Positions 25,923 through 62,100 of a stretch of DNA of 64,000 nucleotides are shown one piece after another. Position 1 is the stretch's first letter. Every line of letters begins with the position of its first letter. The translations under genes and the position numbers were made by a program. The stretch is from Branchiostoma floridae (Eukaryota; Chordata; Leptocardii; Amphioxiformes; Branchiostomatidae): contig NC_049994.1 of NCBI RefSeq assembly GCF_000003815.2, positions 5,080,392 through 5,144,391 of the forward strand. Reading direction: 5' to 3'. The notes below the pieces were generated by a model. It worked only from the letters and a program-made list of their open reading frames with translations. It made no database searches and was not told the origin of the DNA.

Positions 25923-28900
25923 GTATGTACCAGTACAAGTGCCATATTCAAGAGTTGCTCTTATGCTTCGGGATGAAGATTGAACTTTTTGTTCGGCCTC
26001 ATCTTTTTGAACTGAAGTGCTTACACCAGTATTTACGATAGACTTCACATTACTAGCCCTGTATTTACCTTTCTCACCGATTCAGAACGAAAAACATGGG
26101 TTGTTTTTTCTCTGCTGGCATTTTCTTTTGAATTCTCACCACGATTCCCTTTTGTAACTGTGTTTTTCACTTCACTTGGCACCTCCTCAAATTAAGCGGG
26201 GGGTTGAAAAACACGAGTGCTCTCATGTATTATTCTTTCCTACATTGCCCATGCTGGCTCATTATGTTTCTATACCAGATTAGATCCGAAATATCAAAGG
26301 ACAAATTTCACCTCTAGCAATTTACTTTGAGCCTGGTTATATAACAAATGCATTAGCTAGAAGAGCTAGAAGAGTACTATTTAGATGAAAATAGAGATTT
26401 TAGGAATTCCCTCAATTTTTGAACCGTGAAAATTTAACGTGGACGGCTCTGTGTTTGAAGCAAGGAGCTTTTATCAGTTTGAAGCAAGCACTCCTGTTAA
26501 ATTTTGCTTTCATTTTGATTGAGAAAAAGGCTTGTTTGCAAAGTGAAAGAGTAACACAGGTGTAACATGTCGGAGCCGCAGTTAGTTCACACAAGAGCTT
26601 CCGTGCGAACATGGCGGATTGACCCACTTGTTGAATCACGGGCCGCTGCAGTTTCCAAGATCGAAGTCGAAGAGCCACATTCATACGCCCTTTCCTTCAG
26701 TAATATGTCTCCCTTTAAGTCATTTTAAAGATATAACGTTAAGTAATGACATTTCCTCCTTGGGTTATATGATACATGTATTGCACTGTACAGTGCGCCG
26801 CGCCCGGCCGGTGTTCTTCCGTGCGATGACAGTGTTTGGAAAAGCAAACATGGCGACTTCGCAAATAAAAAAGAAACGCCTCTTTGTGATTTCCCCATTA
26901 TTTTTCTGTCCATTTCCATCGCTACTAGATGTACACTTATAATCTACTAATAAAGCAGAGAATGGCTTTAACATTACGTCAGTTAAGATCATTGAACAAC
27001 TTCCATGACAAGGCCGCTACTACGCTAGGAATTAGTCACGTACACTGTCTGTAGCGTAGGCCACTTTTTACAGGTTAACCGTCTGTATTTAATTGTTGCT
27101 GAAGCCACGGCATTTTCCTAAGGTTACAAATGACAGTTTCTTGTGTTTTCCTTAGTGTTTGACCGCTGCAAGTCTGATCGCGACGGCCACGGGTGACAAC
27201 AGTGCCACAACCCTGGACGAAGAGGGGTTCCACAAGGCTTCGGTGGTCCTCGTGGCCTATCTCACCGACTTAGCGGGCGTGTGCAAAAACAGCTCCGACC
27301 CGAGTGCAAAAGGGCTTTCCTCGTTTGAGGACCAGCTTCTCCAGTACACACACAGCGAGAGGGACGACAGACTCGGAGATCACAGCTTCGAACACGTCTT
27401 GGAAGACATCGGAGTCAACTACCAGGTTGAAAACTGGGGCAAGGTGAGTTTGGAAATACGTGAGACACCGGGGAAACAAAATGGCGACGCTTTGTTTCTG
27501 AAATTCACAGCGGGAGACAGAGGCGATTTGAGGGCTGTCACTTCAGCCGCACCCTATGCGTGCACGGTATTTAGCTACTTGTTTCTTTCGCTATTTCTAG
27601 CTTTAAAGTTTAAAGATAAATATCTGTGTCAACAAAGGTCTACCAGATGTCGTTCCGGCTATCTTCTTCCACTTGGAGGGTTTTAGACAAAGCTTACGAC
27701 CCTGTATATTATCTGAATGTCTAACTGCTAGTAGTAGTACCTGACACGGAGCGCACGGTGATCGAGTTACAGCAAACAAGACCTAATGTCATCAATCACC
27801 TGTCAGTCAACCCGTCTCCATGGAGACCAGTTATTTATAGACGGCTTGCAGGGCTTCAGCCAATCAGGGAAGAGCATGACTTTCACCTGCGTGTCAGAAG
27901 TAAAGAAAGAAGAAGCCTAGCGGGTGGTCATACTCTTTTTCATTGCGCAACAGTTTTGTCTGAATTGTATATTTTGTAAACTAAACCCAAGGTTCAATAC
28001 TATGCAAAGGGTAGTTTAGAAGGGTTGGCTGTGACCATCTGTTCAGTCTAAATGCAACAACAACCTATGCTTGCAAAGCTGGTGTTTTACACAGATGATG
28101 GTAAATATGTAAATAAATAAATAAACAAACAAATATAGATACTCATACACATTCATACTTGATAAGGATCAGAGGACTGATCGAAAGCTAGTTGGTAAGC
28201 GCTTTATTTTGTGTACGGATGTAAGGTGTCTGCAACATAAATATAGATAACGTTACAGATACAGAAGTTGGTGTGAAGAATTTACAGGTCTCCCTTGTTG
28301 ACAAGTTGACATTTCGAAGATTCTCATGGATACAACAACAACTCTCGCATTCCCACTAGGTATCTTAAGGCCACACCAAATTATTTGTTGTGCTCGTTTG
28401 CGCTCGTTTGTAGTGTTAAGGCAGACCCTTGTTTTTAGACTGAAATTATGTGGATGTGGCTATGGATGGCAGTATTTACAGGTTTGTGATAGCAAAACGT
28501 ATTATTTTTCTCGGGACTTTCAAAATGAAACAAAATAGACAGTGTCACACACGAATCTGAGAAGCAACAAATAAATTTGGTGTGGCCTAACATGAAAAAA
28601 TTATGATATTGACTCCTACCAAAGAATCATCTTTTGAATACAAACTTGAAGTGTGCATACCTCGCGGATTCCTGATGCTACATTATCAGATCTCTGTAAA
28701 ATCTCATCTTTAATAGACCCCTGAGAGACTAAAAAAATTGTAACCCTCTTCTTTTCTCAGTGTTTCAGTACCGAGTCAGTTTTTGAGGAACTGAACATCA
28801 CCAATACCAGTGGTGGGGCAACCCGGGAACAGCTGGGAGAGGTCGCGGCTATAACAGTCGTCAGCGTGCTGCAGGGGTTGTGTATCGGAGAGGCAACGCT

Positions 28901-31900
28901 GCCGGAGAAAACCTTCTTCACCAACCACATCTTTGAGCTACTGAATGCTACAAATGGCGTCATCACAGCAGCGGGTAAGAGGCTTACATGTTTGCACAAT
29001 CTCTCGCTGGCTGGAGTTTATGACCCCCTCCCCTAGGTGGTGGCAACTGAAGTAATATTCAACCAGATCCACTGTGGCGTAATTTATCGTATCAAACTTG
29101 CCCAATTGACTCCTTTAGCCGGTTATAGTCCTTGGCCAGCTTTGATACTACTGTAAATGCAGAAATGTTTGCGGTGGATTAATGTTCGCAGTTTTCGCAG
29201 AGAACACTTCACCGCGAATTTAAAACCACAGCGAACATTTTTCTATTGTAGTGTTACCGCGAACTTAAATCCACCGCGAAAAGTCCTTTTTCCCGCTACC
29301 GCGAAATTAAATCCCCGCGAAATTAAATACATTTACAGTATCTTATGGCACCGTAGGATCTGCTTGGAGATTACAACTGTAGGGCTGGCCGCTGGGAGCA
29401 CAGTTTTAGTCAGGCTAAGGATAAGTACTCTCCAAGCAGAGGTTGGTGGGGAAAATCGTGAGCTTTTCCTTGCAACTGTTTTTTTCGATCGGCCTTCCCT
29501 TCAAGCATGTCCAGAGTTACCAGCAGAACCCTGGGAAGTCGGTCAGTGCGTGGCGCTCAATGGCAGTGTGCAGAGTTTTGGAGCGGCAGGAGTTTTGATG
29601 AACGCAAATTCCAACTTTAAATTTTTAAACAAGTACTATGACAGACATTTTATCGTCTCCCCCTAGATGTCAAGAATATGGTGTATACTTTTAAATTGAT
29701 ACCTTTATACATGTACATTTGTATATGTAAACACAAGAAAATATTTGGGTGCACCTGTATATCCACAGAAAAAAATTGGGTGCACATGCAGCTCCAATTT
29801 TGGGTGCACTAAGGTGCAAATACACCCAGTATTTGGAGCCTCGAAGTAAGTAAGTTGACGTACGGCATTACTCCGCAACGTCGGGGTTATACACGTCCGT
29901 TAGTACATTTTGTATTTCAAGCATGTGAAATTACCTTTGACATCAAGATTCTGCACAGTTGACAATTCATCTTTTTATTTTGATTCCTAATACCATACAA
30001 ACAAGACTGGCAATAAAAATATTATTGCCATGACGACGATTGAGGGGAACAACAATACAGCTCAAATCAGAAATAGACTGGAACTTCCCTGTCGCACTAT
30101 CCCAGGCACAATATACGAGCCCACCTGTAACATAAGCCTACACAGCCAGCAGACATGTACTATCCCTGGTACAGCACAATGGTCTGCCAGTAACCTAGGT
30201 CTTGGACAGGCTTCTAAAGTCTGTTATGTGGCAAATAGAAAATATTGAATTTCATTCTCATGGTTCATCTCAATCTCATAACCTTAAATGCATATAATTC
30301 TCAACACAAAGATTCAACTACCCAAAACTGTAATGACATTATGCGTGTGGGTGGCTGGCTTCCACATTTGTTGCTTTTCATGAACCCTCTAAGAATCAGA
30401 ATATCCAGGAACAAAGAAAAAGAAAAATGGGAATAGGTGGTCGCAAACAGTATGGTCTTTGTTCTGCTATTAAAAATCTATGCCAAAAAGAAAATTGAAC
30501 CTCCTAGCAAAACAGATTCTTGAGGCAAGGTAGAGTCACATCATGTCACAAATTAAGTTTGCACACCTGCATTTAGCCTTGGCAACCCTTCACACTCACA
30601 CACACTCACTATCCAGTTAAAAGACTAAAAGAAAAAAGGATGTTCCGCTTTGTAGTTGAAAAGATGTTATAATCGCTAGCATATTTCACCTGACACGTAG
30701 AACATGCCCCATTTCCATGGTAGGAAAAACACAAAATAAGCCGACAAGTTCTATGCTTGAGTGTACATGTAAGTCTATTCAGTATGTACGTGTAGTACTG
30801 GTACATTGACGTTCCGGTATTTTGGACCTGTACCTAAATCATTTCCATGGGACTGCACGTGTAAACAGCACTAATTGTACGTCCTGAGCCACTTCATGAT
30901 AAAAGCAATGAATCAGCACAATTGTTCTGCATTTTAAGCCCACATCAAATTCATGCTTGCTTCATTTTCTGGGAGAAATGTACAAGAGCCATATTTCCAC
31001 CTGATTTGCAATTCAGTTCACATGAAACGTAGTGGCAAATTGGATTTTCTAGGGCTTATAATAGCTCAGTACAAAAGATCTTTTGTAGGCCGGATCTTTG
31101 CAGTACAAAGCATGTCTATATTTATTATGTAGACAACATCTGTTTCTGTAAAACGTGGGAACAACTTTATTTTCTCACCAGGCAGTAGGATAATATGAAT
31201 GTTGCCTCATTTGTGAAAGTACTGTTTCCTGAGTCTGAATTGGCAGCCAGTATATGAATAAGTATCATTCAGTGTTACAGTTACGAACCTGCTTTGCACT
31301 GGCAATTGCGGCTGCATCACATCAAATCTCATCATCCCTAAAGTATAGTCAGTATTCCGAATAAAAAAATAAGATATCGTTCAGTTTGGGTTTAATGATT
31401 TTCTCTTGATTCGTGAGGAAAAATCACTGACATTCTTTAAGACAGATTTTTTTGGTAGGTCGGAAATGTCTGATTGCCACTACAATTTTTTTTATGGACC
31501 CAAAGGCATAAATGATATGTAGTATGAACTGTGAAACTGAAAGGTAATCCATGCTCTAGTTTTCTAGATGCGGATCCTGGGGAAAGAACTCTGCAACAGG
31601 CCTGACTCAGCCTAGTTCAGTAGTACTAGTACAGATGTGCCTACAGACTGTCATTCTCGTATAGGACTGTTTAGCCACAGCTGACGCTGCAGGGTTGATA
31701 TCGATTAGGATTTTATCATGGTCAATATTGACTGAAGGAGGCCATACACTGTATATGCTCACTAGTTTTCTGTACATGCCTCTGATATAAATAACCTGGA
31801 AGCAGGTGGCAATGATGTTTAAGGCATCTGGTGGATTTTTGAATCCTTTAAAGTTGATGGATTTCATTCATCTTACTTGAAGACATTTGATAGCATAGGA

Positions 31901-47162: not shown

Positions 47163-50100
47163 GTGAGTACTTCAGTTTTTCTGTATCAAAATCCCGCCAA
47201 AAATTAATTTGCACCGGACACAAACCGGACACTGACCACATGTATGCCAAGTCATCATCACTATTCATTCCAGATGTAGAATTCTCTCTCCGAGTATTTG
47301 GTTATTTCGTGGGACTTTTCGTAGCTCCTGCTTTTCTTTCAGCGTTTCATTTATGCCAAGGGAGGTATTTATTTACCAAAGAGAAGTGTATTTTGCCAAC
47401 AGTTTGCTAGATTTTGCTAGAGATTTCTTTACACGCCAGTCAACTCTGGGGAACACAGATGTTTTTCCATNNNNNNNNNNNNNNNNNNNNNNNNNNNNNN
47501 NNNNNNNNNNNNNNNNNNNNNNNNNNNNNNNNNNNNNNNNNNNNNNNNNNNNNNNNNNNNNNNNNNNNNNGCAAAATATTTGTTTTTAAAAATCGTAAGC
47601 ATTCTTTGAATCTGTCTGCTTTCATATCCTTTGAGCATACTTTTATAAATTAGAAAAAAACATAGCAATTCGGCAAGGCAAACTGCTTAAACACAGGGGG
47701 AAGTGGGGAAACTTAAATAACTTATTTTCTGTCAGCACCATATCTTAAACAAATGTATACTAGTAGTGATATTGTTGAATGAATATGGGCAAAGGGGTTT
47801 AGGACTAACGTTAACTGTTGTTACTGGTTTTTGCTTTTATTTTGTGGTTTTACATGTGCTTTGTTTAACGTATCTGTAGCTGCCATGCTTTCTTTTTGTT
47901 GTTTGTTTTGCAAAAAGTAATAAAGAATGATTGAAAAAAAAATCAATTCAGTTGAAAACTTTTATTGGTTTTCTGAAGAGTTATTGTTCATTTCTGCAAT
48001 GAATTATGAAGAAAATTGTGTTATCAGAAAGGAGTGATCACAAAGTTGTTTGGACCAAAATAATTTGATTGTACAGAAGTAGCAAGAAGTTTGCTGAATG
48101 TTTGTCATGAAAACATTACAAACAAAGTCTCTGTGTTGAGCCCAAGAAAATAAACCCACCAAAGGTGTTTTGCTATGTTGATCTTGGATTCCGTGGTACT
48201 GCTAGGTCAGGCACTGATGGACAGAATGATGGAGTGAATTTGGGGACGTCAGACTCATTGGATTATGTCAGCCCAATTTAACATTGCATTAGACCATTCA
48301 GCTGAAAAGTTACATTGGCATTGGCATGACAGCTACAGTATGTTGATGTATTACTGTAACACAATAAGGTAAAGGAGAGGTGAAGCATGATCTTTTTCCA
48401 ACTTAAGCTCAAGTTGTAATCAATGCAATTTTGTGGCTATCGGGTTGGTGCTTTTGGCCAACAACTCTGGGTCATCCCTACTCTTCGATAACCGCATTGG
48501 TCCTTAAGTGCAGAGATTTGATGCTTTATAGTTTTATAATGGCCGTGTGGCGCATTGCATACCCTCGATCTCTGAAGTTAAGAAACATGCAATGCGGACA
48601 GTTCTTTGATGGGAGACCACCCAAAGATGACCGGGTGCTGTAGCTGGAACAAAAATTTCACGAAATCGTTTTCCAGGAGGGACGAAAAATGGAGGTCCCG
48701 TGCTCGAGTAGGTGTCTCAGCCATGTTAATCAGCCTCATTAATCAACACCTTGGGTTCCTTGTACTAGCTGCAAATACAACCAAAATTATTATTATTATT
48801 ATTATAATACTTAAAGTCATATATAGGGCCGCCTGCTTTATGTCGCCCTCCAAATAATATTGATCTCCCGCATATTCATTTGATACATTAAGACTTGTAA
48901 TAGGTCTCATATACGGATACTTAACCAGGTAGTCTACTAAACCATTTTAATTGGGATTTCCTAGACTTAAATCAGAATTAGAGTCAAACGCCTGTTTTTT
49001 TTTACTAATCTTCAAGCTGGATGTTTACGTATCCTCAATACTTTGGCCACCTATATCTAATGAAGTGGCACAGACAGAAAAAGTAACTTTGCAAAATTTG
49101 CCATACCAGCACATGGATCAATGGTTTTTCACAATGTGTCATTCTTTAACTCACTCAACAGCTATATCCTTCACATGAATTTTTAATGTAGAGAGAGACC
49201 AACTAGATGAGTAAATAATATGCAAGCAAATCTCCAAGGATGTAACTAATACACAGAACACCTTAACAATAGAACAAAACCACCTCAAAACATATACAGG
49301 TATTATCTTTAATCCTTACAATTGTAAGAAGTTCCTTCTTGATTTGTGTGTTTAAAGAAAATGCACCAGTGGAGGTAAAGTTATTGTTAGCTAGTCCAGG
49401 ATGTTAGGTACTACAAATAACAAGGAGACAATAGCCTTATTCACTGTACGTTCCCACCTGATTAACCTTTATTGGTCCAAGGGTGCTTACCTGCATTACC
49501 ACCTTGTGTAGGTTGCCTTGGAAATTGGACCCCCTATGGTTAAATAAATACAGTAAAGCCATATATTGTAATGGTACAGAATGACATGTATTACTAGGAA
49601 ACATTTTTATATGAATACTAGTCAGTGAATAAGAAATAGTAAATAATCATTTAGGTTTTAGACTGTAACAAAAGACAGAAAAGCAATGCTTTTTACAACA
49701 ATTTTACCTTTCAGCACGAAGTGTCAATCAATTGGACGGGAGACCTGGCGCATCCCCGTCTTGTAATTAGCCTACGAAAGGGTATGTCACCCCGTAAGGG
49801 GCGGTATAACCCCGTCGTGTGTAGACATGTGCGAACATGTCTACATTTGATCACGTCGACCGATGATGATGATAAAGCCAATTCATTATTCCATACTTAG
49901 CCAAAGTCAACAAGGCTTGGGCTGTTAAGAAAAACATTGTATGTTAGGAGCTATGGAAGAGGGGTTGAAATCCAGGTTGAAATTAAAGTTTTCCAGTGAA
50001 AAGTTTGGACTTTGCAGGGTTGCTGTTTTCTCTGTTGCTTTATGGCGTCATGACAGATGTTTAGCCCAGAAACCCATGGCCAGAGGTCCTATGTTCAAGT

Positions 50101-53100: not shown

Positions 53101-56100
53101 ACTTTGTCGATTCAATACTAAAATCGTGCGAGATACGGAAGGGGCTGTCAAAGTTTTAAAATTTGTGTAACTTAAGGGTGCCGTCACACGTGCGTATATC
53201 TGTTGTACATGTAGACCTTACGAAAGTCTCTGTACTTTTGTCGTTTCTCAATAAAGAATCTTTATCAAAGTTCATATGAGGTCCCTATGGACTATTTGTC
53301 TTTATCAGGCTTCACATATATCACTGGGAAAAGGCCGAAATTAAACAAATGTAGACACTCAGATAACATGCTAGAGAAGTTAGTTGGCCGAGGGAGTATG
53401 GCCTGCGATCTAGCTAACTCCTCTGGCATGTCATCTGTCTATATATGTCCAATTTTATTTTCACAGCGACCTGTGGAGCACGGTGGGGGCGAAGAATTTC
53501 ATACGAACCTCATACGGACTTGAATACTATATGCATGTGTGACCGCATCCTTCAGGTGCAGTCACATGAGCGTATATATCAAGTCCATAAGAGGTCCGTA
53601 TTGACATTTTTCTTTCTAAGATCATACCAGTCGTATGCACAATATACACCTCACCTCATACTTTTAGGTAAGCGTACTGGGCCGTGCTGAGCGTTAAACT
53701 GACACAACGATTGAGATGCGCGTGAGGGGTGTATTGTGCCCGTTAACACGTGTAAGTTCCGCATTGACATGTTTTGTCTTGCCTTAGGTAAAGTTTGCGA
53801 CTGAAGAAATTTTGTTTTGTTCTACCAGCTACAGAATCGTGGGTAAAAAAGTTCGAATTTCGTTCCTCGTGAACAAGCCAAACAACTTTTAATCCTCGCT
53901 TGATTATCGACAGAACATCGGGGGCAGTACTGGTGAAAATATCATTCACAGCTCAGGACTCGATGTGCCGTGTTTTATAAAGATGAAATAGAACAAGCTT
54001 GCTGACAATTTCGTGTAACATGGTATACGTCCATGACATATGTATACCCTGTACCAGAAACCAACTTTCTCCCAAAAAATAAAAGAAAGCATGCACAAAC
54101 TCCGCGGCAGGGCTACTGTTGGTGGGCTGGTAGGAGAGTGGTTTAATCAAGTTATTGAAAAGACGACGGACTGTAGGTAATGTTGTTGAATAGAAACGGC
54201 GAGTAGGCCTTATCCTGTGTTTATGGAACTCGCAATTAGCACGGCAAACATCCAGCCCGTTTCTGAAAAAAAAAGGCTTCTTTCCACCTACGAGTCCACC
54301 ACGTGCAACACACAGCCGTGTGGAGATCGAGCCGCTTATCATCCAACATGGCCGTTCGAACGTTCGAACGCGACTGTGACGTCATTGTGAAAACGATCTA
54401 TAACATAATGTTCTAGAACAGACTTTGTTGTAAAGCCAGACTTTGGTGATTGTTTGCACATAAAGGTACTAAAACCATAACCATGCCATCTACAACTCAT
54501 GATCAACGAAACGTCTTTTGGAAATGATGCATTAACGATGTTTTCTAATGGTAAGTCACTGACAACCTGTCTTTGTGTGTCAGACTCAGATATTTAAAAT
54601 TTTGAAAATGTATATCTAATCTCTTAAGACTGAAAAATATTTGAATATCTATAATATTAGTACAGAAAAAATTCCAATCATTACTATGACTTTTTTCCAA
54701 CTGTTCAACAGTCCAAAACTTATTTATGTGTGTGTGGATGAACATGACCATTTCTAGTTTAATCTAATTAAATGGCCTTTGTGTGAATGTAGAAGATGTC
54801 GGAACTAATCAAAGAACACAATACACAGAGTGCCAGCACTTGACAGTTTAACAGATTAGATTTAGTCCCCCCTGCTGTTTTCATGACCACTGGTAGTTTA
54901 TCTACATGCAATGTGTCAATCAAACCATGGTTACGGTGTGGCTGATATAAAGGTTTTGATGTAGATAAGAGATGTTGCGTGTTATAGGAACATTCATTAT
55001 AGTTATAGCCATGAAATGTCATGTACAACATATAGTAGTGACATATAAATGACATTGTGTAGTGGAAGTCATGAAAGGATAATACATGTATTGATTAGAG
55101 GATAAGGTGGGTCAATGCACCTATAATGGACGTTTGAAGAAATGCTATAAATCCCAATACCAGGAAACATGCACTGTATGTATGTTTCAATTGATTTTGA
55201 TGTAAGTCACATAATATTTAATTACATGACCTTTATCGGCACTGTGATAATACAAAGTTAGGAATCATGCTCAGTTTTGGTTTTGGTACTTCTTGCCTGA
55301 TCTTTCAAGAAGAAGAATAGATTTTCACATATTAGTGATTATGATGTTTACATTCAGCAAAATATTGTTTTAGGTCAGTTGCTTCTTCTTCTTCTACAAA
55401 CCAATATTAAGGTCATTGACCTTGTCCAGATAGCTGTCACCATGGTTACTGGTAAACTAGGAGACACCCTGTGGTGTTGGATGACATTATGTAGCAAGTG
55501 GCAGGACAGCGGCGTGTATATTCATCATTTTAATATGACTTTGTGTTTGCGTGAAAATAAACAGAGCAGTACAGTAGCTTGACCATGTGAAAGTAAACAA
55601 CATGATGTGTTTGATTGCAAATGTTACTTTTCTACTAAAACGTTTTTACAATAGTCTTGAAGATTTCAGGGTTTTGTTTAATGTCTTTTGTTATGTTGTC
55701 AAATGTCATGAGGATTAAGCAGTTGTGTAAAATGCATTGTCTTTATACTTTTCAGTTACGCCCAAAGACTTTAGTGCCTTCACCCCACCCCCTGGAACTG
55801 AAGCCCCCCGCCGCACCTACAAGTACCAGGGCTTCCCCGATAAGCAGTTTGAGGGTGTGAAGCAGCCGCTTACAGGGCCGCTGGGCTTCAGAGAGAACGA
55901 CGCTCCGCCTCCTAAACGGAAAAAAGTACAAGCCACGCAGTTCGTCAATGGTGAGTATCGCATGGAGAGATTCTTCACAGTTTGATTTACATTTACAGGG
56001 CTCGAAATACTGGGTGCATGTGCACCCAGGTGCACCCAAAATTGGAACTGTGCACCCAATTATTTTCTGTGGGTGCACAGGGTGCACCCAAATATTTTCT

Positions 56101-59100
56101 TAGGTTAATGTATGTAAATATATCAAAGTATATAGTATACATCATATTCTTCACATCTAAGTGTTAGAAAGATAATAAAAATGTCTGTCATGGTACAACT
56201 TGTTTAAGAATTTGATAGCTTGTAACTAAGTTTTTATCAATAGGTCATTACTTAAATTTAAGTGGTGCATCCCAAAATTTTTTGGTGCACCCAATTTTTT
56301 AAGCTGGGTGCACCAGTGCACCTAATCCCAAAAATGAATTTCGAGCCCTGACTTAAAAAAGTCTATCTTTCAAATAATTCAATTTGGTACAGTAGAAGCC
56401 GCTTAATTGCACACCCAATTTGCCAGCGAATTCCGTGCAATTATCTGGCGTGTGCGATAATGCAAAGTTACCCAGTTGGACCGCACCGCCACGGGATGTG
56501 GGGATTCCGTGCAATAGACCGAAGTGTGCGTTTATCCGACATGCAATTAACTGGCTTCCACTGTATACACAAATCATCTTAGAAAATCAAACACCAGAGC
56601 GAGTAGTATATGATATGGTACTTTAAATTCATTTTGAAGACATTTGTTTGAAGACAAATTAATACAGTTGGATAAGTTTCAGCGATTACTTCCAGATGTT
56701 TTGAATGACATTCAGGACTGTTCTTCAGCATCACTACTAAGTAGTTTGAACTGGTTAATAACAGACCAAGGGTTTGGGAGAAATGCTCCCCTTGGGAGAT
56801 TTCGTGTAATAGGCAACCAATAAAAGACTTGGTTCGGCCCTCCTGGGGTCATGTGATCCCACACCACGTGATCTCAGTCCTCGGCCAGTTTATCCCTGCC
56901 TGCAGGGGAGTGAGGACGTTTTGATAAGTTATCCCTTTTAACCCGCCACCACCCCAGGGCCACCTTAGTTAAAGTTAAGTGAATAAGGTTTTCAAGACAT
57001 TACTTCGGAAAAGTAAAACTGTGTTTGTTCGGAAAAGTTAAACAGGATTAAAAAACTTTTCCCTTTCTTGTGCCAAACTCTGCCTCACTGTCTTTGTTGT
57101 TAGATTATTAAAGTTGTTAACTTGTACTAAAAATTGTATCTTTGAACTGTCTGTAGTTAAAGCTGAGAGTGCCTAGCCATCATGATCATTCTTCTACGTC
57201 TGACAACAATAAGTGTTTTTATTGTAGCTAAAGGACTGGTACTTTTTTCTTATGTTTTTATATGTCCAAGGATGATATTTACCTAGTCAGTAAAACTTTT
57301 GAATTTTCTATTTCCAGGGAAGCCCATCTTTGAGTTAGATGGTAAGAATTTCCAGTACGGCACAGACGAGCTACATCACCTGCTGGAGTCCTCCGACAAG
57401 ATCCCAGTCAGACGGTCTGATTTCCTGAAGGATCAGCGAGGGTATGCAGGGCTTGAAATTCATTTTTGGGATTAGGTCAACAAATTGTTGGGTGCACCAC
57501 TTAAATCATAATAGAATGTCAGAAAAACCTAATAACAAAACTTTAGATACTTACATGCTATCAAATTCTTAAACAAGTACCATGACAGACATTTTTTATT
57601 ATCTTTCTAACACTTAGATCAAGAATATGATGTATACTAGTATACTTTGATATCTTTACATAAGATAAACCCAAGAAAATATTTGGGTCCACCCTGTGCA
57701 CCCACAGAAAACAATTGGGTGCACAGCTCCAATTTTGGGTGCACCTGGGTGCACATGCACCCACTATTTCGAGCCCTGGTATGTATAAATTGCTATAACA
57801 CGTAGCACCTAGAACGTGCCTTTACGGTTTACCAATTGAAAGCAAAACAATCAGCATGGTAAAGCAGATGAAACAGATCCAGGCTTTAACCAGCTCAGGG
57901 ACCAGGCACTACAGCCCACAAAAATCATGACCATGGCTTGTACAGAACACAAGATATCAAAACCAGAAATTCTGCTGCACTGCCGTGGAAAGCTGCCAGG
58001 GGGCCCAACATCTAATTGTTACTAGTTTTTGTCACAGCCTACCAACACACTAAATCTATTTAGCCATTTTAAGTGATCTTGGCGACCAGCTAACAGACAC
58101 ATACACACACATACATACATGTAGATGGTGCCTTGAATATAACCTCCTTGACAAAGGTATTAACACCCTTGCAAAAATGGTGACTGTAAAATGCTACATT
58201 GGTCTGACATTTTTGTCATAATGATACCACAACAGTCTATATCTCTTAGCATTAATAACCATGCCTTGATTATACTGTATTGACCAGCTTTTGCAGTCAG
58301 CTCAAAAGACTCTTCTTGTGTGCCGACAGGTCGGCAGAGGAACGTCGCCGTCACAAGCAGCAGAACGAAGCGGAATTGGACATCGCTCGCTGGCGAACCG
58401 AGAAGGCTCGCAAGAAAGTAGAGGAGGTGGAGGAAAAGAAAAGGGTGAGAAAGAGTGAAAAAGGGGGATTGGGAGGAATACTCTTTAATCCCTGGAGACT
58501 TGAAAAGCACATTCATCAATTGTCTCTTTTCTTTGTATTATAATAATAAAATGAAAATCTTACTCTTTGTTCTAGAATTCTCCTTTATACAAAGAATCTG
58601 ATAATATAAAAGGCTCTAAATTCTTATTGCCATTCTTCTAGACCAAAATATGCACATAAGGATTGATTGTTCACTTGATTATGTAATGCCAATCATGTAA
58701 CTACATTGTACAATTTAATGGAGAACTCTGTAATTTTTCTACACATGATTTAAGAAGAGAGAAGAAGCAATTATGGCATGTTAATTATCTGATATAAATA
58801 AAGTTTCTTATTGTGCACAATTTATCTGTCTTGATACACATATTTAGACCCGTTTTGCTTTCTAATCAAATATACTTCACTATGTCATTGTGTTCTAATT
58901 CAGTATTCTTTCCTGACAGGATCTGGAAATGTTGAAAACCTACCAGCCTTTTGGCAGGCCAGGAGGAGGGGCTCCAAAGGTAGGGACAGACATGCCACAT
59001 CAACCCTGTTCAATTGTCATCAACCAAATGCAGAAAAAATTTTCATGAATTGTCATAGTATGGAAAAAAAAATGTGGCAAACTTAAAAATTTTTGATACC

Positions 59101-62100
59101 TTTGACATGTTTTGAAGTTCGATACTGTTTACACTTTTGATTCAATACTATGAGCGCAGTGGGGTGTGTTTGATAAACAAAACAATGTTGATTTGATACC
59201 AACAAAACACGTCCCTTCTTTGTGTAGCCCACTGCCCAAAGTTTTGTCCATGATAGCGCAAACAATTTGTAATAGCCCCCTTATTTAAAGCTTACTTTTT
59301 GGCAAATTTCTTAATATTTGTTGACTTCCCTGTTGTAAAAATGGTGAATTTCATAATATCCAAGTCTCTCTATGCATTTCATGGTTAACGCTAGTTCACC
59401 TTTATCCGCTAACCTATATACATTGTTTTCTAAAACAGGGTATTAAGGCACATCAAGCTGAAGGGTGGTAGTTTTAAACCGCAACATACTGAACATATTG
59501 CAATTTGAAACCAACGTCCGTCAACGTGATATCTCCAAATACCCTGCTTTTAAAAGCAACGGATATAGGTTACCCAACGGATAAATGTGAACTAATGTTA
59601 AATCTTTTAGTTTATCTGCAACAAAACTATGGGACTACCTAAATTAATTTTAACTTAACCTTTTACCATGCCGTTTTTTTCTTTATGATGTGCACATATT
59701 TTAGCCTGAGTATCATCCTCCGTAGTAACCGCTGGCTCACGACTTTCACTTCCTAACTCCGTGGTTAGCAAGCGAAAGTCGTGAGCCAGCGGTTACTACG
59801 GAGGATGATTCTCAAGCTACACATATTTGCCAAGAACCAAGGAAATAAATTGTCGTGCACGTGGCCTTAGAGTGATAATCAAATTTTAGATACTACTAGA
59901 AGAACAAAGAAAAACAAACTATGATCATGTATTTTGAACACTTGTGAGGCTGTTTGACCATTGATCCCTAATGTAGCGTGTGTTAGTCCATAGATTAACA
60001 TTGTTCCATCTCTCATCAGCCTGGAATCAAGAAAGACTCCCCACCAATTGTTACAGACAACCGGATGGTGGGTTCACACAGACTCTTGCATTGGGGTGGA
60101 AAGTGTTCATGGCAAATTCCCAAAAGTCGAAAAAATGTCCATTCTATTTTTATGGCATGTTAATTGCAATTCAAGACCAAAATGGTGACTCGATGACTTG
60201 CCAAAAAAAAACACACACAAAAATGACACTGTTTTTCAGAATAGAAAAACACACAAAAAGCATACTGTTTTTATAACTGACAGTTCATTTTCCACCATCC
60301 ATGAGTTCCTATAGTGTGGTAGCTCTCTTTCTGCCCCCCTCCCCCATCTACTCACAGTGTTTCTCCCCGGTCAACTACCATAATGGTTATTGTCACTGTA
60401 AACTAAGTTTATCCTAATCTCTACATAATGTCATTCTTGTACTTCTTTCAATTGCAAGTCCACTCAAATATACTTAGTCTGATACAGGATACAAATTATA
60501 GGCTACTCATTAAGCAACTGGAAAAGTTGCGAGAGTAACTTGAAATTTGTATTGTGTATCTTTTTACCTGTGTGTCTAACCAACCTTGACATACTTACTG
60601 ATAAAGTTCTGATTTCATAAACACAACAAGTGTGTGCAGTGTAAAAGTCAGTAAAAGTTGATAGAAATTGATAAAGGAATTAAACAGTTTTGCACAGGTG
60701 TACCACTGGGGGTCAGGTAAGCTGATACCACACAGTATTAATAGTGAAAAGTGCCTATGACACCAAAGTATAACGTTTTCTGATTATCTTCAATAATACT
60801 AGTAATACATTGTAGTATCATTCAATGTACGTTCAGACATTTGCACCAAATAAACTTTGATTTAAACTGCCATATTCATTGTGACATCAATAAGTAATAT
60901 TGATCAACATTCAATTACATGTACCTATAATAACTATTGTAACTAGAATGGTCTAATGTAGAATAACAAAAGCAGTGTATATTTAGAGCAAATGTCTCCT
61001 TTTCATTGAATAATAGACAAATTAATTTTAATTGAATATATCAGAAAATGTTGTCCATTGGTGTCATTGGTATCATAAAGTTTAAAGGACATACGTCCAG
61101 TATTTCAAATATCTTCGTTAGTCCGAAGCTCACGAGATATGCCTACTTGTCTGTTCTATACAGGCTCCTATGACTAGGATGACAAACTCATTAGAGACCA
61201 GATTTAGACCCCCAATGCCAGAGGTGGGTTTGTGTTAGCGAGGAAAGTGAATTGAGAATAGCTGAGTGTGTTTCGAGTGTTTGTTTTGCTTGTTTGATTT
61301 TTTATCTAGCGTAGACAATATCTACTAGCAGCTTAGGAGATCAGAAGTTTCAATATTGTTTGTTACGGTCAGAAAAAGACTGTTTAAAATTCAACTTCCT
61401 GAAACTAAGGAATTTTATAAATTTGGCTCTTTAAAAAAACAACAAAAAAACTACAAGTAATATTGTTCAAATGTTATAGATGTAGGGTTGATATATATAT
61501 TAGTTCGTTTTCTTTAATGTAAATGTAATGTTTACATTGTACATTGAAAAAAACACTAATATATATATCTACATGACCTAGAAAGTCTAGACTTAAAGGA
61601 ATGAAGAAGGAAATATTCTATCTTGGAAAATGCAACAAAAATTTGTTTTTTTACAGAGAAAGGGGATAGGAAACTAACCACAATCACTGCTTTCATCTGC
61701 TTCTTTCAATCCATCTTTCTGTGTGTTGTCTTTTGTGTTTGATTGTGTTGTGCTCTTTTTTTTCGTACACAAGTCATGATCTGTTGGTGCATCTGTTCCA
61801 ATTAGTGTAGTTTTCAGCAGGGATATCTCCAGGAATTGTAAACCTGAGGCTTCAAGGAGCATCACATTATGAAATAAACTTTTGACACATATTGATCAAA
61901 ATTCCCTTCTGAATGTGAGCAAATTCAGTCCTAAAATGTCATCTTTTCAATCCATGTGCTAGTACTTACTTTGTGTTAACTTTGGTGCTAGTTCACCTTT
62001 ATCCGCAGGGTAACTGTATAAAAAAATTATCCATTGTTTTTAAAAAGTATGGTATTTAGGGATGTCAATTTGTCCTTTGACATGATATCCCTAAATACCC

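Follow-up and report, generated by a model that had tools for sequence, protein, structure and literature searches.

What becomes of an exon when a DNA transposon occupies the first bases of the intron behind it, and from which of the resulting sequences is that exon then spliced? The question arises at exon 3 of a predicted gene in the window, i.e. the whole 64,000-nucleotide stretch of Branchiostoma floridae DNA that was analysed, where a short element follows the exon almost directly and the same five bases stand on both of its sides.

The host gene and the element behind exon 3

Five exons within 55756-60067, bounded by AG on the acceptor side and GT on the donor side, can be joined without a stop over 180 codons, and this holds for one of the three frames. 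They are given below, with the evidence for each in parentheses and with a slash marking the splice border, here and throughout.

55756-55950, forward strand: predicted coding exon 2, with donor ATG/GTGAGT at 55951 (open frame with the later exons, AG/GT borders)
57318-57441, forward strand: predicted coding exon 3, 124 nt, with acceptor TTTCCAG/GG and ending in ...CAGCGAGG (frame and phase continuity with its neighbours)
58330-58444, forward strand: predicted coding exon 4, with its acceptor at 58329, 546 nt past the distal copy of the target duplication (frame continuity)
58920-58979, forward strand: predicted coding exon 5 (open-frame joining)
60020-60067, forward strand: predicted coding exon 6 (open-frame joining)

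The last codon of exon 3 is two bases long and is completed by the first base of exon 4, which makes 57442 the frame-keeping donor. Frame, phase and borders together suggest that 57318-57441 is a genuine exon. Searches of Pfam and the PDB with the spliced fragments of the gene yielded no significant hit; a scan of viral contigs for its protein returned 43 pattern matches, none of which was confirmed. A later intron of the same gene harbors a foldback element (window 59702-59819) with 56-nt arms that are 93% complementary and a 6-nt loop. Elsewhere in the window, a run of 100 N at 47471-47570 corresponds to an assembly gap or a masked stretch.

The region that follows exon 3 is composed of an element and two copies of its target duplication (TSD).

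57442-57446, forward strand: GTATG, exon-side copy of the TSD, identical to donor positions +1 to +5 in AGG/GTATGC (TSD comparison by length, donor scores)
57447-57778, forward strand: element A, a 332-bp non-autonomous DNA transposon, probably a hAT5-like miniature inverted-repeat element (MITE) (TIR, TSD, copies in the genome)
57779-57784, forward strand: GTATGT, distal copy of the TSD with the presumed original T at +6, forming the potential spare donor CTG/GTATGT (PWM, U1 pairing)

Element A has the termini CAGGGCTTGAAAT and ATTTCGAGCCCTG, and its TIR measure 13 bp with one mismatch. When its flanks were compared at lengths from 2 to 10, they matched in full at length 5 alone, the distal GTATG of the TSD itself lying at 57779-57783. 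The original prediction, according to which this GTATG duplication coincides exactly with positions +1 to +5 of the intron that follows exon 3 and a GTATGT copy survives 337 bp downstream of the exon-side donor, preceded by the end of the element, is upheld on both counts, by coordinates and sequence for the former and by sequence and spacing for the latter.

To characterize the family, the genome (513,431,437 bp in 431 contigs) was searched using window positions 57300-57800 as a query. This search yielded 1,913 first-look candidates, 40 of which were scored, and the 39 other copies that were fetched are the best-scoring ones, not a random sample. Both ends are present in 37 of these 39 best-matching copies. 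Among the 37, a perfect 5-bp TSD flanks 30 and a match of at least 4/5 flanks 32, the sole perfect match at any other length being one 6-bp case. At six loci (L021, L026, L036, L045, L072, and L073), the flanks fit better at a length of 6 bp than of 5 bp, which may point to 6-bp duplications now and then. Genome-wide there are 5,712 occurrences of the exact end CAGGGCTYGAAATWC, a count that also takes in a sister family whose ends are the same but whose core differs; the base five positions earlier is a purine at 2,859 of these ends and a pyrimidine at 2,853. Such a different core, rich in CCTGCA/TGCAGG, lies between the same or nearly the same ends at L095/L131, L135, L137, L141, L142, and L144, which represent a sister MITE family with members that likewise occur at donors. 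The window itself contains a third, degenerate copy of the family at 29619-29840 (∼77% identity over 230 columns, ends decayed), as well as a lone end-like sequence, CAGGGCTAGTAAT, at 26049-26061 on the reverse strand, perhaps from a related family.

Judged by size, TIR, 5-bp TSD, and high copy number, element A is a MITE, and its ends and TSD point to its being hAT5-like. Its CAGGG...CCCTG ends, which we take to be hAT-like, the 5-bp TSD, and the many short non-autonomous copies are the points of likeness to hAT5 elements, from which it differs in that no transposase is tied here to CAGGGCTCGAAAT ends, the assignment being made from ends and TSD. The Dimer_Tnp_hAT model has 33 matches in the genome. 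Rfam returned 0 matches over the whole window at gathering thresholds, and nothing was found when viral contigs were scanned for the end of the element. A 5-bp TSD is given for the hAT5 group of hAT DNA transposons (Repbase Reports 2007, cited in PMC12730594).

For a family with a 5-bp TSD and an element whose borders are defined by its TIR, a single pre-insertion sequence is possible, so that the donor would predate the insertion. The empty site would have read CGAGG-GTATG-TATAAA, i.e. CGAGG/GTATGTATAAA, which we regard as a well-founded reconstruction. Among the best 40 of the 1,913 candidates, which were those scored, no match besides the locus itself reaches to the left of the TSD. In the scenario that we propose, the hAT5-like MITE would have entered an intron that was already there, at its first five bases, and staggered cutting followed by repair would have copied these five bases. 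The exon would thus have kept an adjoining GTATG donor, with the first base of the element, a C, at +6, and the original intron with its own GTATGT would have been displaced by 337 bp, as the TSD length of the family implies. Since it preserves the reading frame, the exon-side copy would be the one that works as donor. That a hAT5-like MITE sits on an existing donor, which it duplicated, with the exon-side copy working and a spare left behind, is in our view very probable. Two further claims of the original prediction fit this scenario: GTATGC at 57442 as the working donor is favored by reading frame and phase, and the keeping of a donor through its duplication is favored by the 5-bp TSD of the family and the TIR-defined borders, given the pre-insertion sequence reconstructed above.

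Same-end insertions at donors of other genes

The exact end of the element is directly preceded by GTRNG at 75 sites genome-wide, and the 74 sites other than that of element A were all fetched. The words at the 75 sites are GTATG (32), GTAAG (15), GTGTG (15), GTAGG (7), GTGGG (3), GTGAG (2), and GTACG (1), and a TSD matching at least 4/5 at a recognisable far end, with no shift allowed, was found at 47 of them. The 75 sites were screened for open frame and GC, by acceptor score, and by visual inspection, with homology for L096 and L095, and the three insertions accepted as lying on real donors (A, L096, and L095) are therefore a floor. In addition, RG/GTRNG plus the end was searched with one mismatch. 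This gave 99 rows, many of them with a broken GT or already fetched; 20 were fetched, and one of these 20 (L137) was accepted. The three insertions outside the window are as follows.

L096/L132: SMG1 homologue, GAG/GTAAG-element-GTAAGG (60 residues across the junction, gap-free alignment to SMG1 structures, E 3.7e-8)
L095/L131: NKAP homologue, GAG/GTATG-element-GTATGG (35-residue alignment, E 3.9e-6)
L137: lamin homologue, AAG/GTAGG-element-GGAGG, TSD 4/5 (lamin A/C alignment, E 5.3e-13)

These insertions differ in the strength of their exons and in the state of their duplications. In the NKAP homologue, 7 of the 35 aligned residues lie on the exon side, and the case for the exon is made chiefly by its open frame and phase. 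In the lamin homologue, the junction is gap-free in the lamin A/C alignment, which has one gap earlier. The distal copies of the SMG1 and NKAP homologues match once the element end is moved by one base, and the elements in the NKAP and lamin homologues have only their ends in common with A, their core being different. The GT of the spare donor is intact in three genes and lost in the lamin homologue. Same-end elements thus appear to sit on donors in the homologues of SMG1, with the junction supported by homology, NKAP, with weaker exon support, and lamin, with a decayed spare.

Several other sites were examined and set aside. L099 has GTAAG on both sides and lies inside a simple repeat. Of the 20 sites fetched in the one-mismatch search, 14 were dropped on open frame or GC, and three (L139, L142, and L144) showed no convincing exon upon inspection. 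At L135 and L141, an open coding frame ends at the donor and no distal TSD was found; homology lends no support to the product of L135, and that of L141 matches a Pfam model across the junction with an E-value of 1.6e-5, below the model's curated cut-off.

Recurrence at donors raises the question whether the transposase targets them, in which case the repeated insertions would reflect a safe-site strategy rather than chance. Such targeting could account for the three exact-end copies that lie on donors among the 75 donor-like sites, and for the words found at the 5,712 ends, where GTATG occurs 32 times and its window frequency predicts 6.2 (5.2-fold) and GTAAG is 3.5-fold above the window expectation. 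We nevertheless consider it very unlikely. GTGAG, which is equally donor-like, is not enriched (2 seen versus 4.3 expected), and the centers of perfect TSD are simply AT-rich, ATA/TAT being the commonest (8 of 31 end pairs, a total that exceeds 30 because every end pair per locus was tried). Moreover, with a genome-wide total of ∼200,000 donors, chance alone would place the 5,712 ends on +1 to +5 ∼1.1 times, and the Poisson probability of at least three hits is 0.10 with the preference uncounted. The preference is for words with an AT center, and some donors belong to these words; the hits on donors come close to the chance expectation, and donor targeting is not needed to explain them. Recurrence may then follow from a preference for AT-centred 5-mers that includes GTATG and GTAAG, and from the fact that +1 to +5 would be the most exon-proximal register in which the +5 G stays next to the exon.

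The probable working donor, the spare donor and the inverted partner

Two further features bear on how exon 3 may be spliced.

55996-56350, reverse strand: element B, a second copy in the preceding intron, opposite to A, flanked by ATTTA/ACTTA, TSD 4/5 (BLASTN and alignment)
57473-57475, forward strand: in-frame TAG that would be reached upon use of the spare donor (translation)

At the exon-side donor, positions -3 to +5 are kept, and the C of the element is gained at +6 where a T is lost; the spare is original from +1 onward, and the CTG ahead of it is element sequence. Using a human position matrix (PWM) and the U1 5' end, the working donor AGG/GTATGC scores 2.39 and -5.1 kcal/mol, the spare CTG/GTATGT 3.56 and -7.2 kcal/mol, the reconstructed empty-site donor AGG/GTATGT 3.08 and -8.1 kcal/mol, and the other four donors of the gene 4.28 to 6.26 and -8.4 to -11.1 kcal/mol. 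The working donor is hence the weakest-scoring of the five in the gene. When the 129 GTs in 55954-57300 and 57450-58300, i.e. in the two introns beside exon 3, were scanned, the spare came out best on PWM and U1 pairing alike, and 8 of the 129 equaled or beat the working donor on U1 pairing. The second potential donor that the original prediction had described is intact and outscores the working one. Weakening of the exon-side donor is not general, since in the SMG1 homologue this donor scores higher than the spare (PWM 6.81 versus 4.10) and in the NKAP homologue PWM and U1 disagree on which of the two is stronger.

Because the spare beats the exon-side donor on both measures and tops the 129 scanned GTs, one might suppose that the donor at 57779 is chiefly used, with the mRNA retaining 337 nt of element and TSD. 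This is, however, highly improbable. Use of the spare would add these 337 nt to give an exon of 461 nt instead of 124, with the stop 11 codons past the end of exon 3, and folding predicts a lower accessibility for the spare than for the exon-side donor, with a mean unpaired probability of 0.16 versus 0.37 in the local fold and 0.21 versus 0.51 in the global fold. In the SMG1 and lamin homologues, it is the exon-side copy that reproduces the conserved protein, and the distal copy of the lamin homologue lacks a GT. The local fold also gives the reconstructed empty-site donor a mean unpaired probability of 0.02, as opposed to 0.37 for the present exon-side donor. The former is thus predicted to be less accessible than the latter, so that the insertion need not have worsened donor use, and folding may favor the working donor instead of impairing it. 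With the exon-side copy as the working donor, exon 3 would now rely on a weakened donor and on a preference for the nearer one, and the gene is probably still functional, now with a spare, possibly stronger, donor 337 bases on.

Element B, which starts 45 bp past the donor of exon 2, is identical to A in 289 of 315 aligned columns (92%). The introns on both sides of exon 3 therefore carry opposite copies, B 967 bp before the exon and A 5 bp after it, and pairing between them is predicted. A minimum free energy fold of 55949-58329 contains 291 A:B pairs, with a gain from pairing of -231 kcal/mol, global folds of 2.4 kb being weak guides to folding during transcription. The model thus predicts that the A/B pair can fold round exon 3. 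Inverted Alu pairs can favor exon skipping and circular RNA. By looping exon 3, A:B pairing would be expected to cause low-level skipping, back-splicing, or use of the spare donor; skipping of this 124-nt exon shifts the frame. A broader reading is that recurrent duplication of existing 5' splice sites by a group of abundant MITE, with an insertion preference for AT-centred 5-mers that overlaps the donor consensus, seeds latent tandem donors genome-wide, and that the inverted partner makes exon 3 here a regulated exon that is skipped, circularised, or extended. We put this forward as a doubtful extension, on balance rather unlikely.

Origin of the intron and comparison with known systems

An intron that begins with a TSD could also have been made by the element itself. 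Introner families are reported to recruit a 5' splice site from their TSD (PMC9860276), and A could similarly have inserted in a continuous exon, with its own TSD recruited as donor. The exon-side GTATG does appear to supply donor positions +1 to +5 here, yet we find this origin exceedingly unlikely. Between the distal TSD and the acceptor at 58329 lie 546 nt of non-element intron (57784-58329) that contain 6, 14, and 11 stops in the three frames. So stop-rich a stretch is unlikely to be a former exon, which argues indirectly against the creation of a new intron. In addition, no acceptor inside A exceeds 3.36, which is lower than the 3.56 to 6.27 of the gene's five acceptors, on a score that discriminates poorly and ranks a decoy AG at 56905 first (6.93). 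Exonisation of A together with the spare donor was rejected on the same internal acceptor. Least credible of all is that GTATG stands on both sides by coincidence, the true TSD having another length: 5/5 matches at the 337-nt spacing do occur, at 99 of 63,450 window positions (0.16%), but 5 bp is the perfect TSD length in most of the two-ended copies that were fetched.

Taken together, these findings point to an existing donor duplicated by a hAT5-like MITE, an accident that follows from known transposition chemistry and to which recurrence across several genes adds interest. They suggest that a cut-and-paste element can be tolerated even where it lands on a splice signal that the gene needs, since the target duplication that it makes restores this signal. 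For a 5-bp TSD, the rule suggested is that +1 to +5 is the most exon-proximal register to preserve the GT as well as the +5 G. Where a single transcript holds two donors that are nearly identical, such natural pairs could serve to gauge the parts that exon length, order, and +6 context play in donor choice, and could also show how fast a spare donor decays.

Among the open-licence papers listed for TSD splice-site duplication and for amphioxus elements, we found none in which a family of this kind duplicates a donor that was already present. The closest systems share some of its features. In mulberry, MITE-associated alternative splice sites have been reported (PMC6593561). As here, the MITE in those passages lie at or near splice sites and are tied to alternative splicing; they differ in that splice-like motifs are credited and exonisation is shown by transcripts, and the passages do not describe a TSD on a donor. 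Inverted Alu pairs (PMC11263572) are likewise two nearby opposite copies of one repeat family whose RNA can pair, whereas the pair round exon 3 is formed by a DNA-transposon MITE and its effect on splicing is a predicted one. In [D1,2] stwintrons (PMC12403724), an inserted sequence also separates a 5' donor; there an internal intron splits the donor, whereas the donor of exon 3 has been duplicated and its spare copy follows a TG instead of an AG. Introners (PMC9860276) share with element A a DNA-transposon-like nature and a TSD that gives the 5' splice site, but in the present case the intron very probably existed before, its donor was duplicated, and its acceptor lies outside the element.
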